A DNA stretch of 64,000 bases from Oscillospiraceae bacterium (GTDB taxonomy: Bacteria > Bacillota > Clostridia > Oscillospirales > Oscillospiraceae). Below the pieces are notes generated by a model, which saw only the letters and a program-made list of their open reading frames with translations, made no database searches and was not told the DNA's origin. Shown here piece by piece: positions 56,771 to 60,147 of this stretch; position 1 is the first letter of the stretch; every line of letters starts with the position of its first letter. A program made the translations under genes and the position numbers. Location of the stretch: NCBI GenBank assembly GCA_017458335.1, contig JAFTFT010000013.1:1-64000 (forward strand), written 5' to 3'.

Positions 56771-57088
56771 TCAGGTCTGTTTTCGCTCTGCCTTTTTCTG
56801 TCTGTCCCTGCTTCGGATCAGAATCACCGTAACCGTGACCCCCAGCATGAAGGCCAGCACACCTACGAGGACATAGCCGCCCGCGGCGTCGGACAGCAGC
56901 GACGCGCCGGAAGCGGAATTCCCGATCAGCCCGTGTCCGTGGAAGCTGAACACCGTCACAGCCATAAGGCATGCAAACAACAGCACTGTTACGCCACCCC
57001 ATGCCCGGAGCCGGGTAAGCTCTCTCTTTCGTTTCAACACCGCCATCCTGCGATGCACTTCCCGGATTCGTTCCTCGTTCGTCATCAT
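56771..57088 (-). CDS. Small two-helix membrane protein, paralogue of the 59268-59600 product
   Basis: The 105-residue protein starts MMTNEERIREVHRRMAVLKR, after GGAGGTGACAACAT. It has two helices (~30-50 and ~72-92) and a basic tail. The layout and the words TNEERI, GY-V-VGVLAF-LGV-VTV are shared with the membrane protein coupled to the sigma factor at 59587. It precedes the surface-protein gene by 37 bp in the same direction and is probably co-transcribed. A -10 TATAAT lies about 75 bp upstream. Confidence 0.78.
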   Translation of the reverse strand: MMTNEERIREVHRRMAVLKRKRELTRLRAWGGVTVLLFACLMAVTVFSFHGHGLIGNSASGASLLSDAAGGYVLVGVLAFMLGVTVTVILIRSRDRQKKAERKQT

Positions 57089-57199
57089 ATGTTGTCACCT
57101 CCGGTTGTCATCATCGTTTCATTTCTATAGATACATAAAATCGGAAAATTCCCGGCAGATTATATCTTGTTTACAAAAAGTTCACATTTACAGCAAGAA

Positions 57200-57242
57200 A
57201 GATGCGGCTCCTCGTTTTGATCTCCGACGAGGAACCGCATCT
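57200..57242 (-). terminator. Terminator/hairpin after the PIN toxin gene and HicB remnant
   Basis: AGATGCGGCTCCTCGT pairs with ACGAGGAACCGCATCT (one mismatch). On the minus strand TTTCTTGCTG follows. Confidence 0.65.
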
Positions 57243-57244
57243 GT

Positions 57245-57319
57245 TTATCTGATTATCTGAAGAATTAAAATCCGAAGCCGTGTCAACTCATATTCTATAG
57301 ATTGCTCTATCAGTCGAGG
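57245..57319 (-). pseudogene. HicB antitoxin C-terminal remnant
   Basis: Read leftward this encodes PRLIEQSIEYELTRLRILIL and then a stop. It matches NRLVEQSIEYELARH at the end of the HicB at 43949-44284. The DNA identity (about 30 of 34 bases in the core) shows common origin. Nothing upstream in this frame is HicB-like, because the PIN gene's 3' end lies there. Confidence 0.75.
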
Positions 57320-57331
57320 GGAGGACAAAGA

Positions 57332-57715
57332 TTACCAGAGAACACGCACATTCGGATATTGCGGAATACGTTCATCCTTCGTGATGAGGGTCATATCCCG
57401 GAAAATCGCCTGTGCAATCAAGAGCCGGTCAAAAGGATCTCTATGGATCAGAGGAAGCGTTTTCATCACATCAATCTCCGACGCTAAAATGGTAACGACA
57501 GAGATGCCAAGTTCATTGCAGAATGATTCCAGTTCTTCTGCGCTGGCATCGATATCAATTTTACCGATGCTCTGTTTGATGCCAAGTTCCCACAGAGAAA
57601 TAATGCTGACATAGAGTTCTGAGCTTTGCTCCACGATCTCACGGGCATCATCTGATAAAAACGCGGGAGAAAACAGCAGCCCAATCAAAGCGTTGGTATC
57701 CAGCAGGTATTTCAT
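57332..57715 (-). CDS. PIN domain toxin (VapC-like)
   Basis: The 127-residue protein has the PIN acidic residues in YLLDTNALIGLL (D6), SLWELGIKQSIG (E near 43), HRDPFDRLLIAQA (D near 94-97) and LITKDERI (D near 114). It is likely an Mg-dependent RNase. Its ATG overlaps the stop of the small antitoxin gene by 4 bp, the normal antitoxin-first arrangement. Confidence 0.92.
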   Translation of the reverse strand: MKYLLDTNALIGLLFSPAFLSDDAREIVEQSSELYVSIISLWELGIKQSIGKIDIDASAEELESFCNELGISVVTILASEIDVMKTLPLIHRDPFDRLLIAQAIFRDMTLITKDERIPQYPNVRVLW

Positions 57716-57924
57716 ATATAATCCTCAAACAGATCCGGAGTTGCGTCAAAGTCATCTGCAATAGAATGAAACCGATCAGCATAGAGACCGACCGAACGTT
57801 TTTTCACCTTTTTTTCCGTTTCAGCGGCGAACTGCTGCTGAAGAAACGAAATATAGGTTACTGCCATTTCAACATATTTATCCGGAAGGCCGGTAGCTTG
57901 CTTTACCATTGTTTCCAGAGGCAT
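57712..57924 (-). CDS. Antitoxin partner of the PIN toxin
   Basis: The start is at MPLETMVKQATGLPDKYVEM (57924), with AAGGTGG 9 bases upstream; a TTG three codons earlier is an alternative. The 70-residue protein has an N-terminal helical segment and a charged, Asp/Phe-rich C-terminus (SIADDFDATPDLFEDY), which could wrap the toxin. The class is close to DUF2281-type antitoxins. The assignment rests mainly on the coupling to the PIN gene. Confidence 0.8.
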   Translation of the reverse strand: MPLETMVKQATGLPDKYVEMAVTYISFLQQQFAAETEKKVKKRSVGLYADRFHSIADDFDATPDLFEDYI

Positions 57925-58015
57925 TATGTTCAACCACCTTTCTTATAGATGATAATATTTTATCACGTTTTTGACACGAGAGCAAGGTTTTGGACCGAAA
58001 GTGCCTGAAGCCGTG

Positions 58016-58648
58016 TCAGACTGCCATGCGCAGATATTTTCTGTCGAAGAGGCGGAGCAGGAAGGCCGTCACGACCGGGATCAGATAGCCGGCCCACGCA
58101 ACCCAGCCGGTCTGGGAGACGAGAATGTTATAAACCCCGTGATAGGTGGACGCCACGGCGAGCAGACTGGCCGTCCCGGCCACACGCAGCCACAGCCGGT
58201 CCCAGAGAAGCAGCATGCCCATCGTCAGAATCGAGCCGCAGACGACATGCATGGTCCCGGCGCCGAAGCCTCGGATCAGCAGGTGAAGGAAACTTGCCGC
58301 GCCGTTCTGGGTCAGGAAGCAGACGTTCTCAAAGGTGGCAAAGCCCAGCGCCAGCATCAGCACACAGCCGGGCACGCTCTTTTTCTCCGGCTCAAAGATC
58401 AGCAGCCAGAACAGCACAGGAAAGAGCTTCATGCACTCTTCCACGAGGGGCGCGATTTCCATTGCCGCGGTCTGCAGGTTTGCGCCCTGGACCGCGGCGA
58501 GAAAGGTGCTGATATAAGAAGACAGAAGGCATGCCGTCATCCCCGCCAGCAGGAACAGAAGATTCCGCCGCTCTTTCCCGCCGAAGCACAGCACCGCGAT
58601 CAGCAGCGGCGCACTCAGGCAGATATAGACGTTCTCAATATAGTTCAT
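58016..58648 (-). CDS. PrsW-family intramembrane protease
   Basis: The start is at MNYIENVYICLSAPLL (58648), at an ATGA overlap with the upstream gene. The 210-residue protein has about seven membrane helices and the PrsW motifs APLVEECMKLFPVLF (EExxK), FATFENVCF, a histidine in GTMHVVCG and another in STYHGVYN. In Bacillus, PrsW makes the first cut in the anti-sigma factor RsiW. Here it is last in an operon with a sigma factor and a small membrane protein, so it may act on that protein. Confidence 0.88.
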   Translation of the reverse strand: MNYIENVYICLSAPLLIAVLCFGGKERRNLLFLLAGMTACLLSSYISTFLAAVQGANLQTAAMEIAPLVEECMKLFPVLFWLLIFEPEKKSVPGCVLMLALGFATFENVCFLTQNGAASFLHLLIRGFGAGTMHVVCGSILTMGMLLLWDRLWLRVAGTASLLAVASTYHGVYNILVSQTGWVAWAGYLIPVVTAFLLRLFDRKYLRMAV

Positions 58649-59271
58649 TGCTCCTCCGCCTTTCTCAGAGCCCATGGGAACAGCAGGAAGCAGATGGACA
58701 ACAGCGTGTCGAACCAGAAGTAGGGGTTTTTCAGCGTATCGCCCATCCAGAAGCAGGAACTGGTCCATGCGGCATATTCCGCAGTGCAGAACAGAATGAT
58801 CGCATCGGCAACACACCGTTTCCCCATTTCCGGCGGATCCCGCCGCCACAGCAGCACACAGTCTGTCGTGTGCCAGAGCAGCAGACTCATCAGAACCGCC
58901 GCGGTGATGTTGCTGATCCAGTCACCCCACTGAAGATAAAACACGCCCATGCCGATCGTAAAGACCGGGAAGAGCCAGAGCAGCCGGCTGCGGGGTACAG
59001 AGGGACGCGGGCCCCGCACTTCCAGGAGCAGCAGGAGCAGAAACACATAGCCCGCGTACCAGCTCAGATAGGGAATATAGGAGTAATCCGGGGTCTCTCC
59101 GTAAAAGATCAGAAACAGCTGCCAGTACAGATCGCCCAGGAAATAGACGCCCGCGGCCAGGGCCAGAAGCAGCCATACCCGTTTTCCTGAGCGGACGGCG
59201 CGGCTGACGGACAGCGCCGTACAGACGGCGGTCGTCACCAGCTGGATGCCGTTTTCGATGCTCTCGATCAT
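58645..59271 (-). CDS. Polytopic membrane protein of the sigma/PrsW operon
   Basis: The start is at MIESIENGIQLVTTAVCTAL (59271), in an ATGA overlap with the preceding gene. The 208-residue protein has about seven hydrophobic helices with short loops, and aromatic-rich ends (WMGDTLKNPYFWFDTL). I do not recognise a named family. Its position between a putative anti-sigma factor and a PrsW protease suggests a sensor or scaffold, which is inference. Confidence 0.75.
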   Translation of the reverse strand: MIESIENGIQLVTTAVCTALSVSRAVRSGKRVWLLLALAAGVYFLGDLYWQLFLIFYGETPDYSYIPYLSWYAGYVFLLLLLLEVRGPRPSVPRSRLLWLFPVFTIGMGVFYLQWGDWISNITAAVLMSLLLWHTTDCVLLWRRDPPEMGKRCVADAIILFCTAEYAAWTSSCFWMGDTLKNPYFWFDTLLSICFLLFPWALRKAEEQ

Positions 59272-59600
59272 GGAAGGTCCTCGCGGTCTTTCTTTTCCCG
59301 CCATTTTTTCAGACGGAGGCAGAACACCGTCACGCTCACGCCGAGCAGAAAGGCCAGCACCGCCACGACGATATAGCCCAGAGCGCCGCTGTCGGAGAAC
59401 ATGCTGGCGCTCATGGCGCCGGGAGCACCTGTCATAGCCGCAGACAACTGGGGTATCCAGGCTGCCAGCGCGACGGTCAGCGCGAGACAAAGAACAACAG
59501 CCGCCGCGCCCGCGAGGCGGGTCTCCCGTTTTCTCTTTTCTCTCCGGAGCTCCGCCGCACGCGCATGCATGGCGGCAATTCGCTCTTCATTCGTACGCAT
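59268..59600 (-). CDS. Small two-helix membrane protein, candidate anti-sigma factor
   Basis: The 110-residue protein starts MRTNEERIAAMHARAAELRR and overlaps the sigma gene by 14 bp. A ~30-residue basic cytoplasmic segment is followed by a helix (~31-52), a short outer loop (~53-72) and a second helix (~75-95). The coupling to the sigma gene and a downstream PrsW protease suggest it restrains the sigma factor. It is a clear paralogue of the product of 56771-57088. No zinc anti-sigma motif is present. Confidence 0.75.
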   Translation of the reverse strand: MRTNEERIAAMHARAAELRREKRKRETRLAGAAAVVLCLALTVALAAWIPQLSAAMTGAPGAMSASMFSDSGALGYIVVAVLAFLLGVSVTVFCLRLKKWREKKDREDLP

Positions 59601-60147
59601 CGGTCACACCTTCCTTCTCCAGCTCCTGCCGCAGGAGGAGTTTGCCCCGCTGCAGGAGGCGATCGATCTTCTTTTCACTGACGCGAAGCACTTCGGACGC
59701 CTCACGGTAGCTCAGGCTCTCCATGTAGACCAGCCAGAGCGCCTCCCGGTACTGCGGCTCGATCCGGTTCAGACAGCGGTGCAGGGCAAGCTTCCGCTCC
59801 TGATCCAGATATTGGGCCTCGGTCTCCGTCGGAGAGGATGGTTCTTCCGTTAATTCTTCGATGGCAAAGGTCTGCAGGCGTCCGCGCGTTGCTCCAAACC
59901 GAAGCGCCAGGTTGCGCCCCGTTTTGAAGAGATAGGCTTTGAAGCAGCCTTCCCGGATCGAGGGCTTCTTCACCATGATCCGGGCAAAGGTCTCTATCAT
60001 CAGGTCTTCGGCGTCCTGCCAGTCGTGGAGGACGGCATGCAGATATGAGGTGAGGCTGTCGCCGTAACGCAGCATCAGCTCGTCTAAGGCGGCGGTTTCT
60101 CCGGACAGAAAGCGGAAATAGAGCTGATGATCGTTTTCGCTGTGCAT
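59587..60147 (-). CDS. ECF-like RNA polymerase sigma factor
   Basis: The 186-residue protein has sigma region 2 (residues ~10-90: LYFRFLSGETAALDELMLRY, DAEDLMIETFARIMVK, LFKTGRNLALRF) and region 4 (~125-180: LNRIEPQYREALWLVYMESL, YREASEVLRVSEKKIDRLLQ). GAGGAGG precedes the ATG. It heads a four-gene coupled operon with a small membrane protein, a polytopic membrane protein and a PrsW protease. A SigA-type promoter lies upstream. Confidence 0.9.
   Translation of the reverse strand: MHSENDHQLYFRFLSGETAALDELMLRYGDSLTSYLHAVLHDWQDAEDLMIETFARIMVKKPSIREGCFKAYLFKTGRNLALRFGATRGRLQTFAIEELTEEPSSPTETEAQYLDQERKLALHRCLNRIEPQYREALWLVYMESLSYREASEVLRVSEKKIDRLLQRGKLLLRQELEKEGVTDAYE

Follow-up and report, generated by a model that had tools for sequence, protein, structure and literature searches.

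A 64,000-nucleotide stretch of an Oscillospiraceae bacterium genome (GenBank assembly GCA_017458335.1, contig JAFTFT010000013.1, positions 1 to 64,000; hereafter the window) carries on its minus strand a gene set whose sigma factor very probably directs, from a promoter predicted in the sequence, the expression of a small membrane protein and of a large surface protein. This is our best supported result. The sigma gene (60147-59587, 186 amino acids) is followed by the genes of a 110-residue two-helix membrane protein, here called small1 (59600-59268), of a conserved 208-residue polytopic membrane protein (59271-58645) and of a 210-residue homologue of the glutamic intramembrane protease PrsW (58648-58016). 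The initial annotation had these four genes overlapping end to start by 14, 4 and 4 bp, with which the gene coordinates agree, and took them for one unit. The unit is indeed conserved, but it usually comprises six genes (five where small1 is missing). In the window it extends past a vapBC-like pair to a paralogue of small1, here called small2 (57088-56771, 105 residues), and, 7 bp after the small2 stop codon on the same strand, to the gene of a repeat-rich secreted protein of 1734 residues (56763-51559). The annotation covered the DNA up to the small2 stop codon, yet mentioned neither the vapBC-like pair nor small2, and it overlooked the surface-protein output. The gene set, the link from sigma factor to promoter and the surface-protein output are well supported by computation.

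The predicted promoter and its output

The sigma factor exceeded the Pfam cut-offs for region 2 (PF04542, residues 25-84, 33.6 bits, cut-off 24) and region 4 (PF08281, residues 120-170, 49.3 bits, cut-off 25.7), and no region-1 or region-3 family was listed. It also passed the NCBIfam superfamily model TIGR02937 (80.7 bits, cut-off 42.9). Among the best 25 of its 89 NCBIfam matches it stayed below the cut-off of every equivalog, and it reached only 36.4 of the 243.1 bits set for the SigW equivalog TIGR02948. The best solved chains were extracytoplasmic function (ECF) factors such as SigH, SigW and SigE. With regions 2 and 4 and without 1.1 and 3, the protein is, on its domain content, an ECF sigma factor, and its predicted promoter is bipartite, with -35 and -10 elements unlike the housekeeping ones, as for other factors of this type.

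A fitted motif, GGGGAATTT-N9/10-ATGTATCTATATAAGTGAAAGG, precedes small2 with more than 6 bits in 74 of the 83 loci, including the window; no site of that strength was found in 83 shuffled small2 regions, nor in 82 regions upstream of sigma genes. When each site and its near copies were left out of training, 73/83 small2 regions still scored above 8 bits, and a single one of 415 Markov sequences did so under the full model. Plain pattern counts pointed the same way: the dyad GGGA-N15-GTAT occurs upstream of small2 in 34/83 loci (in one shuffled set, no dyad was found more than 6 times), and a strict pattern matched 46/83 small2 upstream regions against 0.67 expected by shuffling. In the window, the promoter core GGGAATTTTCCGATTTTATGTATCTA (57153-57128, minus strand) starts 64 bp before small2 and scored 29.8 bits with its own and near-identical sites out of training. 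In many small2 promoters the motif runs on as TATAAGTGAAAGG past the -10 element and over the likely transcription start; the same is seen at position 3188 of L191, a locus with a more distant sigma factor.

The -10 element falls into five classes (TATC, TACC, ACAC, ACTC and TGTC). Their co-variation with the sigma factor was computed over 74 sigma rows, the full sigma alignment having 83; one site (L096), fitted in a shifted register and ACAC by eye, was counted as ACTC both there and on the tree. In sigma factors generally, a helix of region 4 reads the -35 element. The columns carrying most information on the -35 tetramer were R163 and D162, followed by R56 of region 2; R163 and D162 lie in the region-4 recognition helix, so that their rank matches the expectation for direct recognition. 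The -10 class gave the order R56, G85, L21, L80, H37, V156, T76, D162, T53 and Y185, of which R56, L80, H37, T76 and T53 fall in the region-2 match and G85 at its edge. On the sigma tree the -10 classes required 10 changes, against a mean of 27.6 after shuffling, and none of 200 shuffles went as low.

The window surface protein contains BspA-type leucine-rich repeats, FctA isopeptide domains and InlB B-repeats (Pfam), and ends, by eye, in a sortase-type tail. Its counterparts were sought behind 80 small2 genes (of 90 loci, six being without small2 and four without a downstream open reading frame). A reading frame of at least 250 amino acids begins within 120 bp of small2 in 60/80 cases, often with a 4-bp overlap, and 56 of these 60 have a signal-peptide-like start by our own hydropathy rule. 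We scanned sixteen chosen secreted proteins for domains, ten from behind small2 and six from promoter sites elsewhere: SLH domains were found in three, and other proteins contained Listeria-Bacteroides, InlB-B, Ig-like, collagen, beta-helix, fibronectin III or GLUG domains, while two (L141 and L157) had no domain at E 1e-4. The regulatory genes are thus conserved and the surface protein varies. By eye, the large proteins of L044, L064, L072, L074, L088, L094, L100, L102 and L105 end alike, in a P-x-W...WN-x-LT helix followed by a basic tail; standing in place of LPxTG-like or SLH ends, this C-terminus is perhaps an undescribed anchoring signal.

Sites in trans were sought with GGGRN{14,16}GTATCTATA in 36 genomes belonging to the 46 strict-pattern loci. 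The search gave 41 rows, compared with 16 when the pattern was reversed as a control; the 41 correspond by our own count to 32 distinct sites. Of the 31 analysed (the site left out is the small2 site of L038), 15 precede small2, and L132 proved to be L032's small2 site in another frame. Among the 15 off-locus sites, 8 lie ahead of a gene whose product begins like a signal peptide, compared with 1 of 15 distinct control sites, so that in some genomes the sigma factor probably controls further secreted proteins; the off-locus site L159 was judged a chance match. In the window's own genome (assembly 84% complete, 2.95 Mb covered in the motif searches), GGGAN{14,16}GTATCTA had no match besides the small2 promoter and a looser pattern added none; its regulon may therefore be this one operon.

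Several observations weigh against a simple reading of these data. The motif stays below the cut-off in nine of the 83 regions before small2, by a narrow margin in L084, L096 and L105; the miss of L088 comes from a region lying inside PrsW through a miscalled start. R56, a region-2 residue, ranks third for the -35 element, and L21, V156, D162 and Y185 stand among the top ten for the -10 element. TGTC is the sole class scattered on the sigma tree. Both the co-variation and the clustering of classes are partly due to common descent, since relatedness inflates such figures. In addition, 20/80 small2 genes have no frame of 250 amino acids within 120 bp, some through contig ends, and 7/15 off-locus sites do not precede signal-peptide-like genes. 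Nevertheless, the promoter itself, the variants that follow the sigma tree, the -35 co-variation and the off-locus sites together make control of small2 and the surface proteins by the sigma factor very probable.

Autoregulation of the sigma gene was rejected for this group, the fitted motif being absent from all 82 sigma upstream regions retained after three short ones were dropped. A loose promoter pattern matched 3/85 such regions, and the commonest dyad there was the housekeeping-like TTGA-N19-TATA (12/85). The sigma operon is probably made from a housekeeping-type promoter. In the window, a weak match of this type, TTGAAA-17-CATAGT (60272-60244, minus strand, 9/12 positions), lies upstream of sigma; matches as good number 6 in 4.1 kb, against 1.9 in shuffles. 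The more distant sigma factor of L191 has a site similar to the small2 promoter 73 bp before its own gene.

Conservation of the gene set

A search of 150 family genomes for the polytopic protein gave 11 matches, of which the doubtful G107 (E 9e-4, three stops, no other member of the set on the contig) was dropped, leaving 10/150 with the window's own genome included. The nine other family loci all have sigma, PrsW and small2, and eight of them have small1. We then scanned named genome contigs with the PrsW alignment and retained the best 80 of 218 relatives by PrsW similarity, so that the window, the nine family loci and these contigs give 90 loci. The 80 contigs come from Lachnospiraceae, Ruminococcaceae, Oscillospiraceae, Erysipelotrichaceae, Solobacterium, Eubacterium, Mogibacterium and others, and 31 of their titles name a ruminant source (own count). 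Related sets thus occur in many gut and rumen bacteria.

The order sigma, small1, polytopic gene, PrsW, small2 is found on one strand in 61/90 loci, and 13 more keep it without a full small1 (absent in 10, reduced in 3). The remainder consists of five loci lacking small2 in the available stretch, three with a divergent small2, four rearranged and four without sigma upstream; of these last, L109 and L043 start at a contig end, L043 having a weak sigma match further on. Among records not titled as metagenome-assembled genomes, L106 (P6B14) has no small1, and in L046 (Lachnospiraceae bacterium G11) small2 lies about 1.9 kb from PrsW and is not preceded by the motif. The polytopic gene or a piece of it is present in 89/90 loci (pieces in L038, L097, L103 and L109), the exception, L043, being cut at a contig end. 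Sigma and small1 overlap by exactly 14 bp in 52 of the 73 loci having both genes, and the polytopic gene and PrsW by 4 bp in 71/89. The overlaps noticed initially are therefore not due to chance, and the gene order, whose absence elsewhere had been named beforehand as one of three results that would overturn the proposal, is kept. Three points tell against too general a conclusion: the best 80 of 218 relatives by PrsW similarity are a biased sample; L035 and L056 have no sigma gene beside the polytopic-PrsW pair, with more than 1.3 kb available upstream; and L050 and L069 show no small2 across several kb.

A phylum-wide search of 398 genomes yielded six matches, three strong (the own genome, G515 and G220), two distant and one judged spurious (G324, 56 residues with a stop in the frame, dropped as doubtful). 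In the genus itself, only 3/37 genomes, own included, gave the sigma factor, at E 1e-30, which indicates that its presence there is patchy. One of these three, G645, holds two systems (L198 and L199), one of them divergent and having an additional protein of secreted appearance between its PrsW and small2 genes.

The membrane proteins and control of the sigma factor

Searching the own genome with small1 returned one other copy, small2, with 40% identity. No Pfam or NCBIfam family matched small1 over its cut-off. By Kyte-Doolittle hydropathy with our own threshold, both window copies have two hydrophobic helices, as first described for small1. RsiW is a single-pass membrane protein with a zinc domain, and anti-sigma factors of its type carry HxxxCxxC in the cytoplasmic domain and have one transmembrane helix. 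This motif was found in 0/71 small1 and 0/82 small2 rows; small1 is therefore unlike RsiW on both counts, the number of helices being the difference already named in the initial annotation. The N-terminal residues R7, H12 and R14 are present in at least 64/71 small1 rows and at least 71/82 small2 rows, and the two proteins also share conserved positions in the second helix. In L040, L068 and L103, small1 is cut down to its second helix and tail, about 35-40 residues, between sigma and the polytopic gene.

In the order, the genes of seven more distantly related sigma factors also overlap or abut a membrane-protein gene, mostly with a short basic N-terminus (longer in L196; helices by eye). A profile of the small-protein N-terminus, run on 245 open reading frames of these seven loci, ranked the sigma neighbours of L192 and L194 first and second (E 0.004 and 0.008). 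One protein beside such a sigma factor (L195:4344-6512) combines a short basic N-terminus with a serpin domain (PF00079).

On its position, its 14-bp overlap with sigma and this N-terminal match, small1 is weakly favoured as a minimal anti-sigma factor, the role first proposed for it. Other data speak against the assignment. The N-terminal match is weak: an unrelated frame came third (E 0.25), ahead of L197 (E 0.41), L193 and L191 obtained 3.0 and 2.7 bits, and L195 and L196 were not among the rows listed. Moreover, small2 is kept in all 13 loci where small1 is absent (10) or reduced (3); small1 is thus not indispensable, and the inhibiting role may fall to small2 or the polytopic protein instead.

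NCBIfam gave no match to the polytopic protein, and no Pfam family reached its cut-off; Pfam matches among 68 of its relatives were taken as chance, being scattered, weak and never to one family in more than three. Searching solved structures by sequence gave nothing for it and one match for PrsW (E 0.93). We counted six hydrophobic helices (Kyte-Doolittle, own threshold) where about seven had been proposed, a number that stays plausible. Distant relatives were found in 4/45 genomes of another family, all of one genus (hhalign probability 95%, E 3e-8 for the one compared). All four genes overlap a gene matching our PrsW profile, and the sigma and small-protein profiles had no match in the stretches read around them. 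Since the pair occurs without this sigma factor, it predates the sigma module or is independent of it. This agrees with the part of the initial proposal that tied the polytopic protein to PrsW; we rate the protein a candidate sensor or partner of the protease.

The PrsW homologue exceeded the cut-off of PF13367 (54.9 bits, cut-off 23.5), so that both named identities, sigma factor and PrsW, hold at the Pfam level; it obtained 27.3 of the 225 bits required by the PrsW equivalog NF033739. Residues E70, E71, K74, E107, H134, H170 and N174 are identical in 90/90 rows. Their catalytic role is presumed by analogy with CPBP relatives, the accessible part of PMC11980579 giving E146, E147, H223 and N227 as active-site residues of the myxosortase MrtX. 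The three other PrsW homologues of the own genome were set aside: none of the profiles (sigma, small, polytopic or PrsW) matched around them, which places them in other PrsW subfamilies.

We consider it moderately probable that the set works as a switch in which control of the sigma factor at the membrane governs the expression of surface proteins. The four overlapping genes, from sigma to PrsW, would be expressed together from a housekeeping-type promoter, and small1 would use its N-terminus, which is short, basic and cytoplasmic, to tether sigma to the membrane. An envelope signal, probably felt by the polytopic protein, would lead PrsW to cut small1 and free the sigma factor, which would then transcribe a separate operon, small2 and the large surface protein, from the GGGGAATTT...GTATCTATA promoter and, in some genomes, additional genes for secreted proteins at other loci. 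Having the N-terminal positions of small1 and its second helix, small2 would be made with the surface protein and would probably provide negative feedback or a coupling to surface-protein production. We infer binding of sigma by small1 and small2, cutting by PrsW, sensing and feedback from sequence features. The mechanism of PrsW acting on an anti-sigma factor, as first suggested, is plausible.

The 13 loci that retain small2 after loss or reduction of small1 could also mean that small2 is the main inhibitor, a product-feedback anti-sigma factor, with small1 as an accessory or older copy. The R/H/R positions common to both proteins and the loci left with only the second helix of small1 fit this reading, which we nevertheless regard as unlikely: small2 seems to be made under sigma and could therefore hardly restrain it before the first activation, and it is small1 that overlaps sigma by 14 bp in most loci. 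The same 13 loci, which keep sigma, together with the near-universal presence of the polytopic gene, might instead suggest that the polytopic protein holds sigma and that the small proteins work together with PrsW or the surface protein, for instance as export helpers; the frequent 4-bp overlap of small2 with the surface-protein gene would suit such helpers. Hydropathy, however, shows no clear cytoplasmic domain in the polytopic protein apart from loops and tails; its distant relatives are paired with PrsW at places without a nearby match to the sigma profile; and small1 has both the overlap with sigma and, in its cytoplasmic N-terminus, conserved positions that recur in small2. All this leaves the arrangement quite doubtful. 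Very improbable, finally, is that PrsW acts on the surface protein, like a myxosortase of the CPBP family, and not on an anti-sigma factor. A glutamic intramembrane protease does sort surface proteins in Myxococcus (PMC11980579, accessible part), and several of the large proteins share the P-x-W...WN-x-LT helix; but their ends are unlike one another (SLH repeats, sortase-type tails or the P-x-W tail), and PrsW keeps its place in the sigma operon even as the surface protein varies.

Extending the membrane-controlled switch, we tentatively suggest, as a possibility short of being likely, a modular switch for surface display in gut Clostridia and Erysipelotrichia, in which an older polytopic-PrsW sensing pair would have been joined to an ECF sigma factor and twin minimal anti-sigma proteins, one produced with sigma and the other with the surface protein, so that sigma would be shut off in step with the production of an exchangeable surface cargo.

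No description of this gene set was found among the titles and abstract openings returned by searches of open PubMed Central papers. In Bacillus subtilis, the small two-helix membrane protein YxlC, which resembles small1, has been proposed as the anti-sigma factor of SigY; to our knowledge neither a PrsW nor a surface protein belongs to SigY-YxlC, and the likeness is one of description, not of sequence comparison. Like the present set, the SigW-RsiW-PrsW system combines an ECF sigma factor with a PrsW-family protease, described as the site-1 protease of RsiW in the accessible part of PMC3498285. Here, by contrast, one operon encodes sigma, PrsW and a polytopic partner, the putative anti-sigma factor is a two-helix protein lacking HxxxCxxC, the output consists of large surface proteins, and the NCBIfam cut-offs for the PrsW and SigW equivalogs are not reached. 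Whereas that part of PMC3498285 lists sigW as SigW-regulated, our fitted promoter precedes none of 82 sigma genes. SigM of B. subtilis is held by two membrane proteins of its own operon, YhdL and YhdK, the latter being needed for full YhdL activity (PMC6827917). No PrsW is known in that operon; the accessible part of the paper describes it as autoregulated and mentions no coupled surface protein. MrtX and other CPBP proteases share with the present PrsW the EE and HxxxN pattern, but MrtX sorts MYXO-CTERM proteins, with no sigma factor mentioned in the accessible part of PMC11980579.

In gut and rumen bacteria, this widely conserved regulatory set is tied to how giant surface proteins are expressed, and its readable promoter offers a handle for locating the regulon. 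With presumed substrate, partner and output side by side, it also represents a tractable PrsW case in which the question of PrsW activation becomes testable.

Other features between PrsW and small2

A hairpin with a T-rich tail, terminator-like by eye, lies just upstream of the small2 promoter (57242-57195, minus strand). The terminator scanner, which permits shorter loops only, did not list it. TTTT-N12-GGGA occurs upstream of small2 in 28/83 relatives.

The vapBC-like pair with its flanks occupies 58018-57274 (minus strand), between PrsW and the small2 promoter, and is not part of the system. The vapB-like gene (57933-57712) matches PF10047 with 32.2 bits (cut-off 26.5) and the NCBIfam TA_VapB model with 38 bits, below its cut-off of 60; the vapC-like gene (57715-57332) encodes a PIN domain (PF01850, 67.8 bits, cut-off 23.6). 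By eye, a 12-bp direct repeat, TGACACGGCTTC, stands on both sides of the pair (58018-58007 and 57285-57274). In the nearest relative, L032, whose PrsW is 80% identical, only about 170 bp separate PrsW from small2, with nothing inserted. The pair thus looks like a recent insertion that left the terminator-like hairpin and the promoter in place.

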